From positions 1 through 28,249 of the IMG/VR virus record IMGVR_UViG_3300038558_000005: a DNA stretch of 28,249 nt; one strand, given 5' to 3'. Each line of letters opens with the position of its first letter. Position 1 is the first letter of the stretch. The position numbers and the translations under genes were made by a program. The DNA is from a virus. Below are positions 3,274-8,694 of the stretch, piece by piece. The notes below the pieces were generated by a model. That model worked only from the letters and a program-made list of their open reading frames with translations, was not told the origin of the DNA and made no database searches.

Positions 3274-3286
3274 GTGACCCGGTCAC
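3274..3286. promoter_or_regulatory. Short palindrome GTGACC-C-GGTCAC over the HTH gene stop
   Basis: A perfect 6-bp inverted repeat around one base overlaps the TGA of the HTH gene. It has the size of an operator half-site pair, but a site of this length may occur by chance and no second copy was seen. Confidence 0.25.
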
Positions 3287-3759
3287 ACTGTAGCTGTCTT
3301 CTCCCACGGACGCCAGGGATTCTCAGGATCGATCTCCCACCACAGATGCTCGTCGATGCCCTCACGAGCCTTGACGAACTCAAGCTTCCCTGGCTTATTG
3401 GCATTGAACCTGATGACCACCTTGTCTACGCCGTAGTTCCCTGCCATCTCGGTCAGGTTGCGCACTGTGCGCTGATACTGGTCAAGGGTGCTGGCATCCA
3501 TCGGCAGACCCCTCTTCTGTCGGACGAGTCCGCGCACGGCGCGAGCCTCCTGCGGGATGTTCGTCGATCCGAACTTCCAGTCAGGCGGCAGCACACGGGT
3601 GTTGCGGCGGATCTTCCATCGGCTGGCGAGGCTCCGCACGGCGTTGTACGTGCTGTCGCAGCGATCAGCGATGACACGGTAGGTGTCATCGCTGGTGGTC
3701 AGCTCATCCCAGATGCGTGACTGTAGCTCCGTCAGCCCCTCAGGCTTGATGTGTGTCAT
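3283..3759 (-). CDS. HTH-containing regulator, 158 aa
   Basis: The ATG at 3759 follows a TAGGAT box by exactly 6 nt, which points to a leaderless mRNA and fixes the start. Residues 10-50 (ELQSRIWDELTTSDDTYRVI then ADRCDSTYNAVRSLASRW) look like a helix-turn-helix of the sigma-region-4 or winged type. A basic segment follows (RRNTRVLPPDWKFG), and the C-terminal half (about 70-158) is a mixed helical/strand domain rich in Trp at the end. I recognise no named family. It is the only minus-strand gene in the lysogeny module, faces the integrase, and has its own terminator. A role as transcription regulator (repressor, Cro-like or immunity factor) is inferred from fold and location. Confidence 0.75.
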   Translation of the reverse strand: MTHIKPEGLTELQSRIWDELTTSDDTYRVIADRCDSTYNAVRSLASRWKIRRNTRVLPPDWKFGSTNIPQEARAVRGLVRQKRGLPMDASTLDQYQRTVRNLTEMAGNYGVDKVVIRFNANKPGKLEFVKAREGIDEHLWWEIDPENPWRPWEKTATV

Positions 3760-3765
3760 GCGTCG

Positions 3766-3771
3766 ATCCTA
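3766..3771 (-). promoter_or_regulatory. Leaderless -10 box of the HTH regulator
   Basis: TAGGAT on the minus strand is followed by CGACGC and then the ATG, placing the transcription start on the A of the start codon. A weak -35 candidate TAGACC lies 18 bp upstream. There is no good Shine-Dalgarno sequence independent of the box. The arrangement is almost identical to that of the XRE gene at 5256-5270. Confidence 0.65.
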
Positions 3772-3927
3772 GCGCGGCGTTCGCGCTTGGGTCTACTCGC
3801 CATTTTTATCGGGGCAGAACGCCCATCGGACACACAAAACCGCAGGCCAGAGGCCGAATCCATCATGGGCAAGCAGTGGAAGCCTTAGGTGTACGCCGCA
3901 GGTGGCAGCCTGGTTGGACACTTACGC

Positions 3928-3933
3928 TAGGAT
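3928..3933 (+). promoter_or_regulatory. Possible -10 box of the integrase promoter
   Basis: TAGGAT, the same hexamer as at the HTH gene, precedes the integrase ATG by 30 nt, leaving a short leader that carries a GAGGAG ribosome site at 3953-3958, 5 nt from the ATG. No good -35 is seen at 16-18 bp, so an activator may be needed or this promoter may be weak. The phage attachment site probably lies near here, but no core can be recognised without the host sequence. Confidence 0.4.
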
Positions 3934-3963
3934 GTACGGCAGCGTCCAGACAGAGGAGTAATC

Positions 3964-4998
3964 ATGGCGAGGAGAGCGGCCACAGGGCCAACGTTCGGCG
4001 AGGTCGCGGAGGCGTTCCTCCGCTCCCAGACAGCACTTGGCAAAGCCAAGTCCACGGTGTACCAGCGCCAGTGGGCGCTGGGTTACGTGTCCAAGTGCAT
4101 CGGTGACGACTTCCCGTTGGCCAAGATCACGCAGCAGGTCATGGATGCCGTCATGCTCCAAGCTGGCGACCTCGCGGTTGCCACGCGCAACGGCATGTTC
4201 TGCACACTGCGGCAGTTCATCAGGTACGCGAAAGCCAATGGCCATGAGTGCAATGACTTCATTTTCGGGTACCGTGCGACTACCGCGCCACGCAAGCAGT
4301 ATGAGTACATCCCTGCTGAACGGTTCATGGACATCGTCGAAGCGGCAGTAAATCCGCATGCGCGGGCCATCGTCGCAACAATGCTGTTCACTATGTTGCG
4401 CGGATGCGACATCCGTAATCTGCGGATGGAGAACATTCGTTGGAATGAAGGACCGCATGGTTCGATGCGCATCACCATGCAGAAGACTAAGAAGGAACTC
4501 GTCATCCCTTTCTCGGCATTGTATGCCGAGGAGTTGAGGAATTGGGTCACAATCCTCACTGATGAACTGGCCGCAAATGGGCGGAAGATCGGGCGAGGCA
4601 CAATCCTTTTCCCTCGGCGTAGCTGTGACCATACCGGGGCCAAGGGAAAACTTCTGGATTTCGACAAGGCCGTCTCAAGGTTCGACAAGATTTTCGTCCG
4701 CGCCGCAGCGCGGGCAGGCATCGAACTGCCGGAGGGGGAGGGTGCGCACACAGCGCGCCGCAGCGCCGCAAGGGCGCTATACATGCACCTCGTTGAAACC
4801 TCCAGCCATTCGAGGGCTCTACAGTTCGTCCAGTACATTCTTGGGCATGCGTCGTCCAAGACGACAGAGATGTATATCGGGGTGCATGAGCTGATGGTAG
4901 AGGCAACCAGGGTTCTCGCTGACGACCCGTTCGGCATTGAGGCTGACCGCCTCAAGGCGGTCGGCGGCGACAATGTGACGGCGGTGAACTTCAGATGA
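3964..4998 (+). CDS. int: Tyrosine recombinase, phage integrase, 344 aa
   Basis: The product catalyses site-specific integration and, with a directionality factor, excision of the phage. The N-terminal part (about 10-95) is the SAM-like/core-binding domain; the catalytic domain starts near residue 115. Active residues visible: R146 in LRGCDIRNL, K174 in MQKTKKE, H262 and R265 in HTARRSAAR, H295 in LGHASSKTTE, and the nucleophile Y304 in EMYIG. The set is complete, so the enzyme should be active. The start follows GAGGAG by 5 nt. The stop overlaps the ATG of the next small gene (ATGA). Presence of this gene and two regulators marks the phage as temperate. Confidence 0.95.
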   Translation: MARRAATGPTFGEVAEAFLRSQTALGKAKSTVYQRQWALGYVSKCIGDDFPLAKITQQVMDAVMLQAGDLAVATRNGMFCTLRQFIRYAKANGHECNDFIFGYRATTAPRKQYEYIPAERFMDIVEAAVNPHARAIVATMLFTMLRGCDIRNLRMENIRWNEGPHGSMRITMQKTKKELVIPFSALYAEELRNWVTILTDELAANGRKIGRGTILFPRRSCDHTGAKGKLLDFDKAVSRFDKIFVRAAARAGIELPEGEGAHTARRSAARALYMHLVETSSHSRALQFVQYILGHASSKTTEMYIGVHELMVEATRVLADDPFGIEADRLKAVGGDNVTAVNFR

Positions 4999-5198
4999 TC
5001 ATTCAAGTTCCCGCGTGCGACATCTGTGAGAAGCCCCGCAACAACCTCATACCCATGACTCTGGAGGTCGGCGGGAAGTCGCACAGGGCGGTCCTCTGCG
5101 AGGAATGCGCAGAGCCGTTCACCGCCCTGGCAGCGAAGCTGATCCTGCGGCGCCGGAAGCGCCCGGCGCGCCCGAAGATGGTCGTCCTGATGGATTGA
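4995..5198 (+). CDS. Small Cys-pair (zinc-finger-like) protein, 67 aa
   Basis: The gene overlaps the integrase stop by 4 bp (ATGA) and must be cotranscribed and coupled with it. The protein has two CxxC knuckles, C8/C11 and C35/C38, about 24 residues apart, enclosing a small beta segment (MTLEVGGKSHRAVLC); the C-terminal third is very basic (ILRRRKRPARPK). Small proteins of this CxxC-Vx-CxxC type are common in actinobacteria and their phages. A DNA- or RNA-binding role is likely from the basic tail. Coupling to int makes it a candidate directionality or integration cofactor, though it lacks an obvious excisionase winged helix. Confidence 0.78.
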   Translation: MIIQVPACDICEKPRNNLIPMTLEVGGKSHRAVLCEECAEPFTALAAKLILRRRKRPARPKMVVLMD

Positions 5199-5212
5199 CC
5201 GGAGACGCGAAA

Positions 5213-5244
5213 AAGAGGGGCACCGCCGAAGCGGTGCCCCTCTT
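5213..5244. terminator. Bidirectional terminator between integrase operon and XRE gene
   Basis: AAGAGGGGCACCGC pairs with GCGGTGCCCCTCTT, a perfect 14-bp stem with a CGAA loop. It lies 15 nt after the finger gene stop. Read leftward, the stem runs into a U-run (CTCTTTTTCG), so it is the stronger terminator for transcripts coming from the right. Read rightward it still ends in CTCTTG and can close the integrase operon. Confidence 0.8.
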
Positions 5245-5255
5245 GCGTTGGGCGG

Positions 5256-5261
5256 TATGAT
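5256..5261 (+). promoter_or_regulatory. Leaderless -10 box of the XRE regulator
   Basis: TATGAT is followed by CGTCGC and then ATG, so the transcript is expected to begin on the A of the start codon. It lies 12 nt after the terminator hairpin, so the gene has its own promoter. The -35 region falls within the hairpin and shows no consensus, typical of leaderless actinobacterial promoters that rely on the -10. Confidence 0.7.
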
Positions 5262-5267
5262 CGTCGC

Positions 5268-5648
5268 ATGGGTGCGACGATGAAACAACATGACCCTGTA
5301 GAGATGAGGAGAGTGGGAGCGTGGATAAAATACTACCGTGAATTGAACGGAATGACGAAAAAGGAATTAGCTGAATCCGTCGGGTATAAATGCAGAGTGG
5401 TCGACTTCTGGGAAAGAGGCGATCGGCTGCCTCATCTCATTACTACCCGGGATATCGCTAAGACTCTGAGGATTCCCGTGGCCGCCCTTCTCGTCGAACG
5501 CTTCCCGGATAAAACGTTGATCGTCGGCAACAGGCTCAGAGATCCCCAAGATGCCTGGCTACTGGCAGATCAATACCGCCTCCGGGTGGAAGCCCTAGAG
5601 CGCTCCTCAGCCGCCTCACGGCTGAGTCAACGGCCTCGTCGTACATAG
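5268..5648 (+). CDS. XRE-family (Cro/CI-type) HTH regulator, 126 aa
   Basis: Residues 14-75 form a classic HTH_3 domain: VGAWIKYYRELNGMTKKELA, then ESVGYKCRVVDFWERG, then DRLPHLITTRDIAKTLRIPV. The C-terminal 45 residues are helical and basic with no peptidase or oligomerisation domain recognised. The start at 5268 is set by the leaderless TATGAT box 6 nt upstream; an internal Met at residue 5 is the alternative. A lysogeny repressor or Cro-like switch is the likely role, given the neighbouring integrase. The last 113 bp overlap the convergent gene for the peptidoglycan-binding protein, so the two transcripts are complementary there. Confidence 0.87.
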   Translation: MGATMKQHDPVEMRRVGAWIKYYRELNGMTKKELAESVGYKCRVVDFWERGDRLPHLITTRDIAKTLRIPVAALLVERFPDKTLIVGNRLRDPQDAWLLADQYRLRVEALERSSAASRLSQRPRRT

Positions 5649-7884: not shown

Positions 7885-8694
7885 CTATTTCACAAGGCGA
7901 AGATCAAGCATGCGTTCGATCAGGGCATCCCCGATCGCAGTGACCTGCTCCGGCGTGATACCGGTCGTCTGAAGCGCAGCGATCTGCGCCTTCAGCGCCG
8001 CCATGTCCGCCTTCAGGGCGGCAACCTCAGTGACCAGCGCAGCGGTATCACGCTTCGTCGAATATGTTTTCGTCACCAGACGGGCAAGCGCCGTCGACGG
8101 CGCCACCTCAGTGTTGTTCGGGTCCTCGGAATAATCGACCAGCCCATCCGTCTTCCAGATCGACCGAATCTCTGCCTCTGTGAATGCCACAAGAATCTCC
8201 TTGGCCCGTGCTCTGAGGCCGGGCACTTGTTCGATGCGGTCCGTGCCCGGGCACGTCTTGCCCTTCACGGGCGTCCAGATCCCCGGGTACTTCGAGTGAT
8301 AATCGACGCCCGGCGAATCCCACTCAGCGCAAGGCTGAATTGGAATGCCGTGTGTAACATGCGCCCATGCGACGATCCTGGAGATCGCCTCAAGCTGCGC
8401 ATCAGTCCAAGGGAAGTCATCCGGATCGCCGTTGTCGGCGGACTCGATCGAAATCGCCCGGCAATTCGCCTTATAGTTCGCGTCAGCCTGCCGGGCAGTA
8501 TCCATGTACTGTTCTACACGACCATCGAGACTCACCCAGAAATGAGACTCGACGACGACATTCGACCTGCCGAAATAGTTATACAGGCTGTTCGACCCGA
8601 CAGCCGAATGCAGAATGACCTGCGTCGCAGTGATCTTCGGGGCGGTCTCGTTCTCCGGAAGCGGCATCCAAGATGCCGCAGGGTACCTTGCCAT
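7885..8694 (-). CDS. N-acetylmuramoyl-L-alanine amidase (Amidase_2/PGRP-type endolysin), 269 aa
   Basis: The enzyme cuts the amide bond between muramic acid and the stem peptide of peptidoglycan, for host lysis. Zinc ligands are visible as H29 (VILHSAVG), H133 (DYHSKYPGIW) and C148 (KTCPG), with K146 in the position of the T7-lysozyme catalytic lysine and E84 in ISIESADNG. The catalytic domain covers about 10-160. The C-terminal 70 residues are a helical coiled-coil-like stretch (TAALVTEVAALKADMAALKA), not a known wall-binding domain. The ATG overlaps the fibre gene stop (TGATG), with no clear ribosome site, so translation is probably coupled. No signal peptide; release would need a holin. 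A virion-attached role through the coiled coil is an alternative. Confidence 0.93.
   Translation of the reverse strand: MARYPAASWMPLPENETAPKITATQVILHSAVGSNSLYNYFGRSNVVVESHFWVSLDGRVEQYMDTARQADANYKANCRAISIESADNGDPDDFPWTDAQLEAISRIVAWAHVTHGIPIQPCAEWDSPGVDYHSKYPGIWTPVKGKTCPGTDRIEQVPGLRARAKEILVAFTEAEIRSIWKTDGLVDYSEDPNNTEVAPSTALARLVTKTYSTKRDTAALVTEVAALKADMAALKAQIAALQTTGITPEQVTAIGDALIERMLDLRLVK

Follow-up and report, generated by a model that had tools for sequence, protein, structure and literature searches.

The HTH and XRE regulators that flank the integrase gene of this phage are likely both translated from leaderless mRNAs. The explanation judged probable joins this reading with a private motif at the HTH and integrase (int) promoters, and ascribes the likeness of the HTH and XRE start sites to promoter constraints and chance.

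The window is the whole of IMG/VR record IMGVR_UViG_3300038558_000005 (28,249 bases, GC 59%). Genes of siphophage type are found on its minus strand: terminase, portal, amidase and an ORF of 1623 aa, which has the size of a tape-measure gene. The record also has two tRNA genes, and its lysogeny region encodes a tyrosine integrase. The portal protein shares about 40% identity with that of Streptomyces phages, e.g. FlowerPower, and an actinobacterial host is therefore likely. The sole relative recovered, in searches of viral contigs with the XRE, HTH, int, 67-aa and tail proteins, is viral contig IMGVR_UViG_3300021440_000036 (L005; 47,244 bp), with the same gene order and an integrase 73% identical. 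Two genome scans for further relatives returned none, and every statement on conservation is one comparison, window against L005. The two ends of L005 share a split tail gene and a 13-bp overlap, so the contig could represent a full genome of 47.2 kb that is circularly permuted.

Regulator genes and their predicted leaderless starts

The HTH gene is an ORF of 158 aa on the minus strand (3283–3759), with an ATG start at 3759. Its product has no family match in Pfam, PHROGs, NCBIfam or PADLOC, and no match in the phage collection. The AlphaFold model shows an N-terminal three-helix HTH (block pLDDT 76–93 for residues 1–50) and is poor elsewhere; fold searches with this model, of low confidence outside the N-terminal domain, gave no hit at E ≤ 0.001. 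The L005 ortholog is 47% identical (13/52 in the DNA-binding domain, 57/106 in the remainder). A -10 hexamer TAGGAT (3771–3766) and a 6-nt spacer CGACGC (together 3760–3771, minus strand) place the predicted transcription start on the A of ATG, at 3759. The L005 gene has TAGGTT, ATCGAGT and ATG, i.e., the -10 is kept, the spacer is 7 nt and the bases are otherwise different. An imperfect dyad, a putative operator, extends over the HTH promoter (3761–3796; arms 3762–3776 and 3782–3796, complementary at 12 of 15 positions). A better dyad of other sequence, ACTCGATAACCTACCCGG cat CCGGGTAGTTATCAAGT, occupies the same place in L005.

The XRE gene (5268–5648, plus strand) encodes an XRE-type HTH regulator of 126 aa, with hits to Pfam HTH_3 (5e-8; 33.3 bits, above the threshold of 23) and to several repressor or regulator families in PHROGs. 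By family and position it is a candidate lysogeny (immunity) repressor. The predicted promoter and start consist of TATGAT, the 6-nt spacer CGTCGC and ATG (5256–5270, plus strand), all 15 bases identical in L005. The region is identical to L005 at 56 of 60 positions through the ATG and at 15 of 48 directly after it. The products are 36% identical, with 16/58 in the DNA-binding domain and 27/52 in the C-terminal part; for residues 2–16 the count is 1/15. The 5' end of the XRE RNA folds more weakly than most shuffles, thus there is no start-codon hairpin. A perfect 9-bp inverted repeat, ATCGTCGCA TGGG TGCGACGAT, spans the start codon (5259–5280), falls within a listed 14-nt pair and is absent in L005.

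A hairpin of 14 bp, likely a terminator, is located upstream of XRE (5213–5244, plus strand). It folds at -33.9 kcal/mol over a 51-nt stretch (z -6) and is conserved in L005; its tail TTGCG is weakly T-rich, and it is absent from the terminator scan list. Because it ends 23 nt before the ATG, little room is left for an XRE-only promoter, and the -10 at 5256 fits. XRE would be served by its own promoter, set apart from the int operon by this terminator-like hairpin.

The original prediction of two near-identical 15-mers at these genes is confirmed: TAGGATCGACGCATG (minus strand, 3771–3757, HTH) and TATGATCGTCGCATG (plus strand, 5256–5270, XRE) are identical at 13 of 15 bases and differ at two, and in both a TANNNT hexamer is separated from ATG by 6 nt. 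This anatomy, the relative and the actinobacterial statistics support its reading of both messages as leaderless; the common operator attached to that reading is not supported. The hexamer ends 6 nt before the start at both genes of the window, and 6 nt (XRE) and 7 nt (HTH) before it in L005. Both genes start with ATG, in the window phage as in L005. A properly spaced Shine-Dalgarno is absent at HTH (-4.3 kcal/mol) and at XRE (-6.7 kcal/mol, a value stemming from a poorly placed GGGCGG). Among 31 inspected genes, hand-picked from the ORF list and with predicted starts, only HTH and XRE have TANNNT 5–8 nt upstream of the likely start; most of the others have a clear Shine-Dalgarno (about -7 to -15 kcal/mol).

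Over 629 crude gene calls in Rhodococcus plasmids (900 kb), TANNNT before ATG or GTG is enriched only at spacers of 6 nt (23 cases) and 7 nt (17 cases), other spacers having about 3.7 cases each. From these counts, the odds for a leaderless start with TANNNT at 6–7 nt are about 5 to 1, before the missing Shine-Dalgarno and the conservation are added. Published surveys agree that TANNNT about 6–7 nt before ATG or GTG marks actinobacterial leaderless genes (PMC3160421, PMC3898074). HTH and XRE would each be read from a -10-only (TANNNT) promoter of actinobacterial type with the start point on the A of ATG, and translation of their leaderless mRNAs would need no Shine-Dalgarno, an ordinary situation in actinobacteria. 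In mycobacteria a 5'-end ATG or GTG is necessary and sufficient for leaderless initiation, and leaderless translation is ordinary and robust (PMC4633059). For the proposal that a change of ribosomes in lysogeny keeps the regulators active, no evidence emerged.

Two other accounts concern the XRE start. Its residues 2–16 are not conserved, and an internal start could therefore be used in place of the ATG at 5268, which need not be the sole one. On that account transcription would begin near 5268, translation would begin at an internal codon behind a short leader, and the ATG at 5268 would be an upstream start or a part of the promoter. Conservation resumes at GAW, and in L005 the internal ATG of MLGAW has a plausible upstream Shine-Dalgarno, GGAGAG. 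The window equivalent of this ATG, however, is GTG, with GAGGAG about 1 nt away and too close to work, and in each phage the predicted +1 falls exactly on the ATG, a 5' ATG being sufficient in mycobacteria; a short leader is considered unlikely. Slightly better placed, but still improbable, is recombination at the start codon, by which immunity-gene cassettes would have been swapped behind a fixed leaderless promoter; this is compatible with leaderless reading. The drop in identity falls exactly past the ATG, and the XRE C-terminus, adjoining a convergent gene, is better conserved again. Rapid divergence under selection for new specificity, however, gives an identical picture, and two genomes cannot separate both.

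Likeness of the two start sites

Matches to the XRE 15-mer are more frequent in the window than expected: with up to 3 mismatches there are 4, against 0.88 expected, and 4 is reached in 1 of 100 shuffles. One of the two copies with 2 mismatches, CAGGATCGTCGCATG (8366–8380), is located inside the amidase ORF. Two Rhodococcus plasmids contain 24 and 17 similar strings, against 4 and 4 matches to the reversed pattern; strings like the 15-mer are over-represented in high-GC actinobacterial DNA. TANNNT-N6-ATG occurs 8 times in the window against 4.5 expected, and 7 of 100 shuffles reach 8. This layout alone is not rare; its placement before likely starts is the unusual feature. Given two leaderless starts, a small Rhodococcus profile of 23 sites predicts agreement at 7 of the 9 free positions in about 0.3–0.4% of cases, the comparison being post hoc.

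Scanning with the promoter string of XRE brought up one lineage besides L005. In it TATGATCGTCGCATG, preceded by GCGG, lies at the start codon of an ORF resembling nucleotide-sugar dehydrogenases, in unrelated large viral contigs (three near-identical stretches, L019, L020 and L021, in contigs of 27.6–141.9 kb); the string is thus not specific to regulators. A second string of similar type, TATGATCGACCCGTG, lies about 8 kb from TATGATCGTCGCATG in each of the three.

That the shared bases GATCGWCGCATG form a common operator of the HTH or the XRE protein, with both regulators under one site, had been proposed along with the 15-mers and is now held to be very improbable. The 13/15 identity speaks for it, as do the copies of GATCGWCGCATG in the window (3 exact, 4 with at most one mismatch, 0.72 expected) and the inverted repeat across the XRE ATG. 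The third copy, however, falls within the amidase ORF, other viral contigs have an identical string at an unrelated gene, and the inverted repeat is missing at the L005 XRE gene. The comparison of the 15 bp in the relative, suggested with the original prediction, is divided: the XRE site is kept in full, whereas the L005 HTH start has little in common with it beyond TA...T and ATG, so that the bases are not kept at both genes. The XRE site is also 100% conserved, against an identity of only about 28% between the XRE DNA-binding domains; co-evolving operators show the opposite, which argues against XRE binding there. The HTH copy is not conserved, and a different motif links HTH with int. The close resemblance of the two start sites appears to be coincidental, not the mark of a common control switch. 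On the preferred explanation, common promoter constraints and chance would account for it with no common operator.

Motif at the HTH and int promoters and candidate attP

The tyrosine integrase gene (3964–4998, plus strand; Pfam PF00589 1.6e-16, PHROG integrase 2.7e-30) has the Shine-Dalgarno GAGGAG (-8.8 kcal/mol). Its end is overlapped by the gene of a Cys-rich protein of 67 aa (4995–5198, plus strand; phrog_4061, function not known, 4e-5), which is 58% identical in L005 and has no match in the phage collection.

An arm of the dyad at the HTH promoter, CGTCGATCCTAGCG (3761–3774), recurs inverted at the int promoter as CGCTAGGATGTACG (3925–3938, plus strand), identical at 12 of 14 positions. 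Within the window CGCTAGGAT is confined to these two sites, at 3766 and 3925. The L005 counterparts at the HTH and int promoters are CGGGTAGTTATCAAGT and CGGGTAGTCATCAAGT; their motif, CGGGTAGTYATCAAGT, occurs only there (search with GGGTAGYYATC on that strand of the genome). The HTH-side copy sits within the dyad over the HTH -10 in both phages. The motif sequence differs between the window phage and L005, as do the HTH DNA-binding domains. In the window phage and L005 alike, a motif connects the HTH promoter with that of int, its actual sequence partner, and this points to a private HTH-int motif rather than an HTH-XRE operator.

The simplest reading of the motif is an operator by which the HTH protein would control itself and int. 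The HTH promoter would lie under the dyad, and HTH and int would probably be co-controlled via the private motif; the HTH protein is the simplest candidate for that control. Two other readings are conceivable. The copies could be integrase arm sites instead, because a candidate attP lies nearby. The window copies could also be just two similar -10 regions; counter to this, the L005 copy at int is without TANNNT.

The candidate attP region is a block between HTH and int (3826–3875), GCCCATCGGACAC...AACCGCAGGYCAGAGGCC...ATCATGGGCAA, conserved in L005 (about 4858–4908) within divergent surroundings. Searches for the attP core in other phages gave weak matches only (E about 2 or worse). If the block is attP, HTH and XRE would be located at opposite prophage ends.

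A separate dyad, GAATGCGACACGCGCATT (GAATGCG-ACACG-CGCATTC), occurs once per genome, at 2955–2973 of the window and at about 4050–4068 of L005. Situated upstream of the leftward early genes, where conservation is strong and a putative minus-strand promoter TTGCAT-17-TACATT occurs, it is likely an operator.

Known systems and meaning for the phage

Both switch regulators of phage PY54, cI and cro, have leaderless mRNAs beginning at AUG, as mapped by RACE (PMC4488713). Phage switches in which both regulators are leaderless are thus known already, and the window phage is likely one more. PY54 resembles it in that both regulators are leaderless, although in the window phage such starts are predicted. 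PY54 is, in contrast, a lambda-related telomere phage and not an actinophage, and a single intergenic control region serves both its cI and its cro, whereas HTH and XRE flank int. The classic leaderless phage repressor mRNA is that of lambda cI (cited in PMC4488713, PMC3160421); it differs in a host with weak leaderless translation and in that lambda cI regulates its own promoter, a loop that is not implied for XRE. Actinobacterial leaderless genes share the -10 hexamer, the spacer and the missing Shine-Dalgarno (PMC3160421, PMC3898074), but are host genes there and phage genes here.

The further statement that leaderless repressors are known in actinophages stands in part. Leaderless promoters are predicted in mycobacteriophages of the Corndog type (cluster O) and in Adephagia (cluster K), but these are predictions only, for genes not stated to be immunity repressors, and the mapped cases belong to the non-actinobacterial PY54. 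Among 8 annotated mycobacteriophage repressors, 2 have an in-frame ATG just past the annotated start with TANNNT 6 or 8 nt upstream of it. At divergent cro/neighbour starts opposite the repressor (L067–L074), TANNNT is found at 7–8 nt in 4 of 7, a small sample, which suggests that those transcripts may also be leaderless. The TANNNT-start pattern occurs near mycobacteriophage repressors and is not universal. Giles gp47, Adephagia gp43 and phiC31 c were considered as leaderless precedents and rejected: their annotated starts are without TANNNT at 6–7 nt.

A wider and rather doubtful proposal is that the HTH protein represents an uncharacterised family acting on its own leaderless promoter and on int by way of the private dyad and half-site, that its DNA-binding domain and the operator vary jointly from one related phage to the next, and that the fixed leaderless promoter-ATG would let XRE be exchanged. 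The focus moves from the supposed HTH-XRE operator to the HTH-int motif, i.e., to one protein and two short DNA sites. The window phage is a probable addition to the known switches, as a temperate phage with two leaderless regulators of the switch region in an actinobacterial setting.
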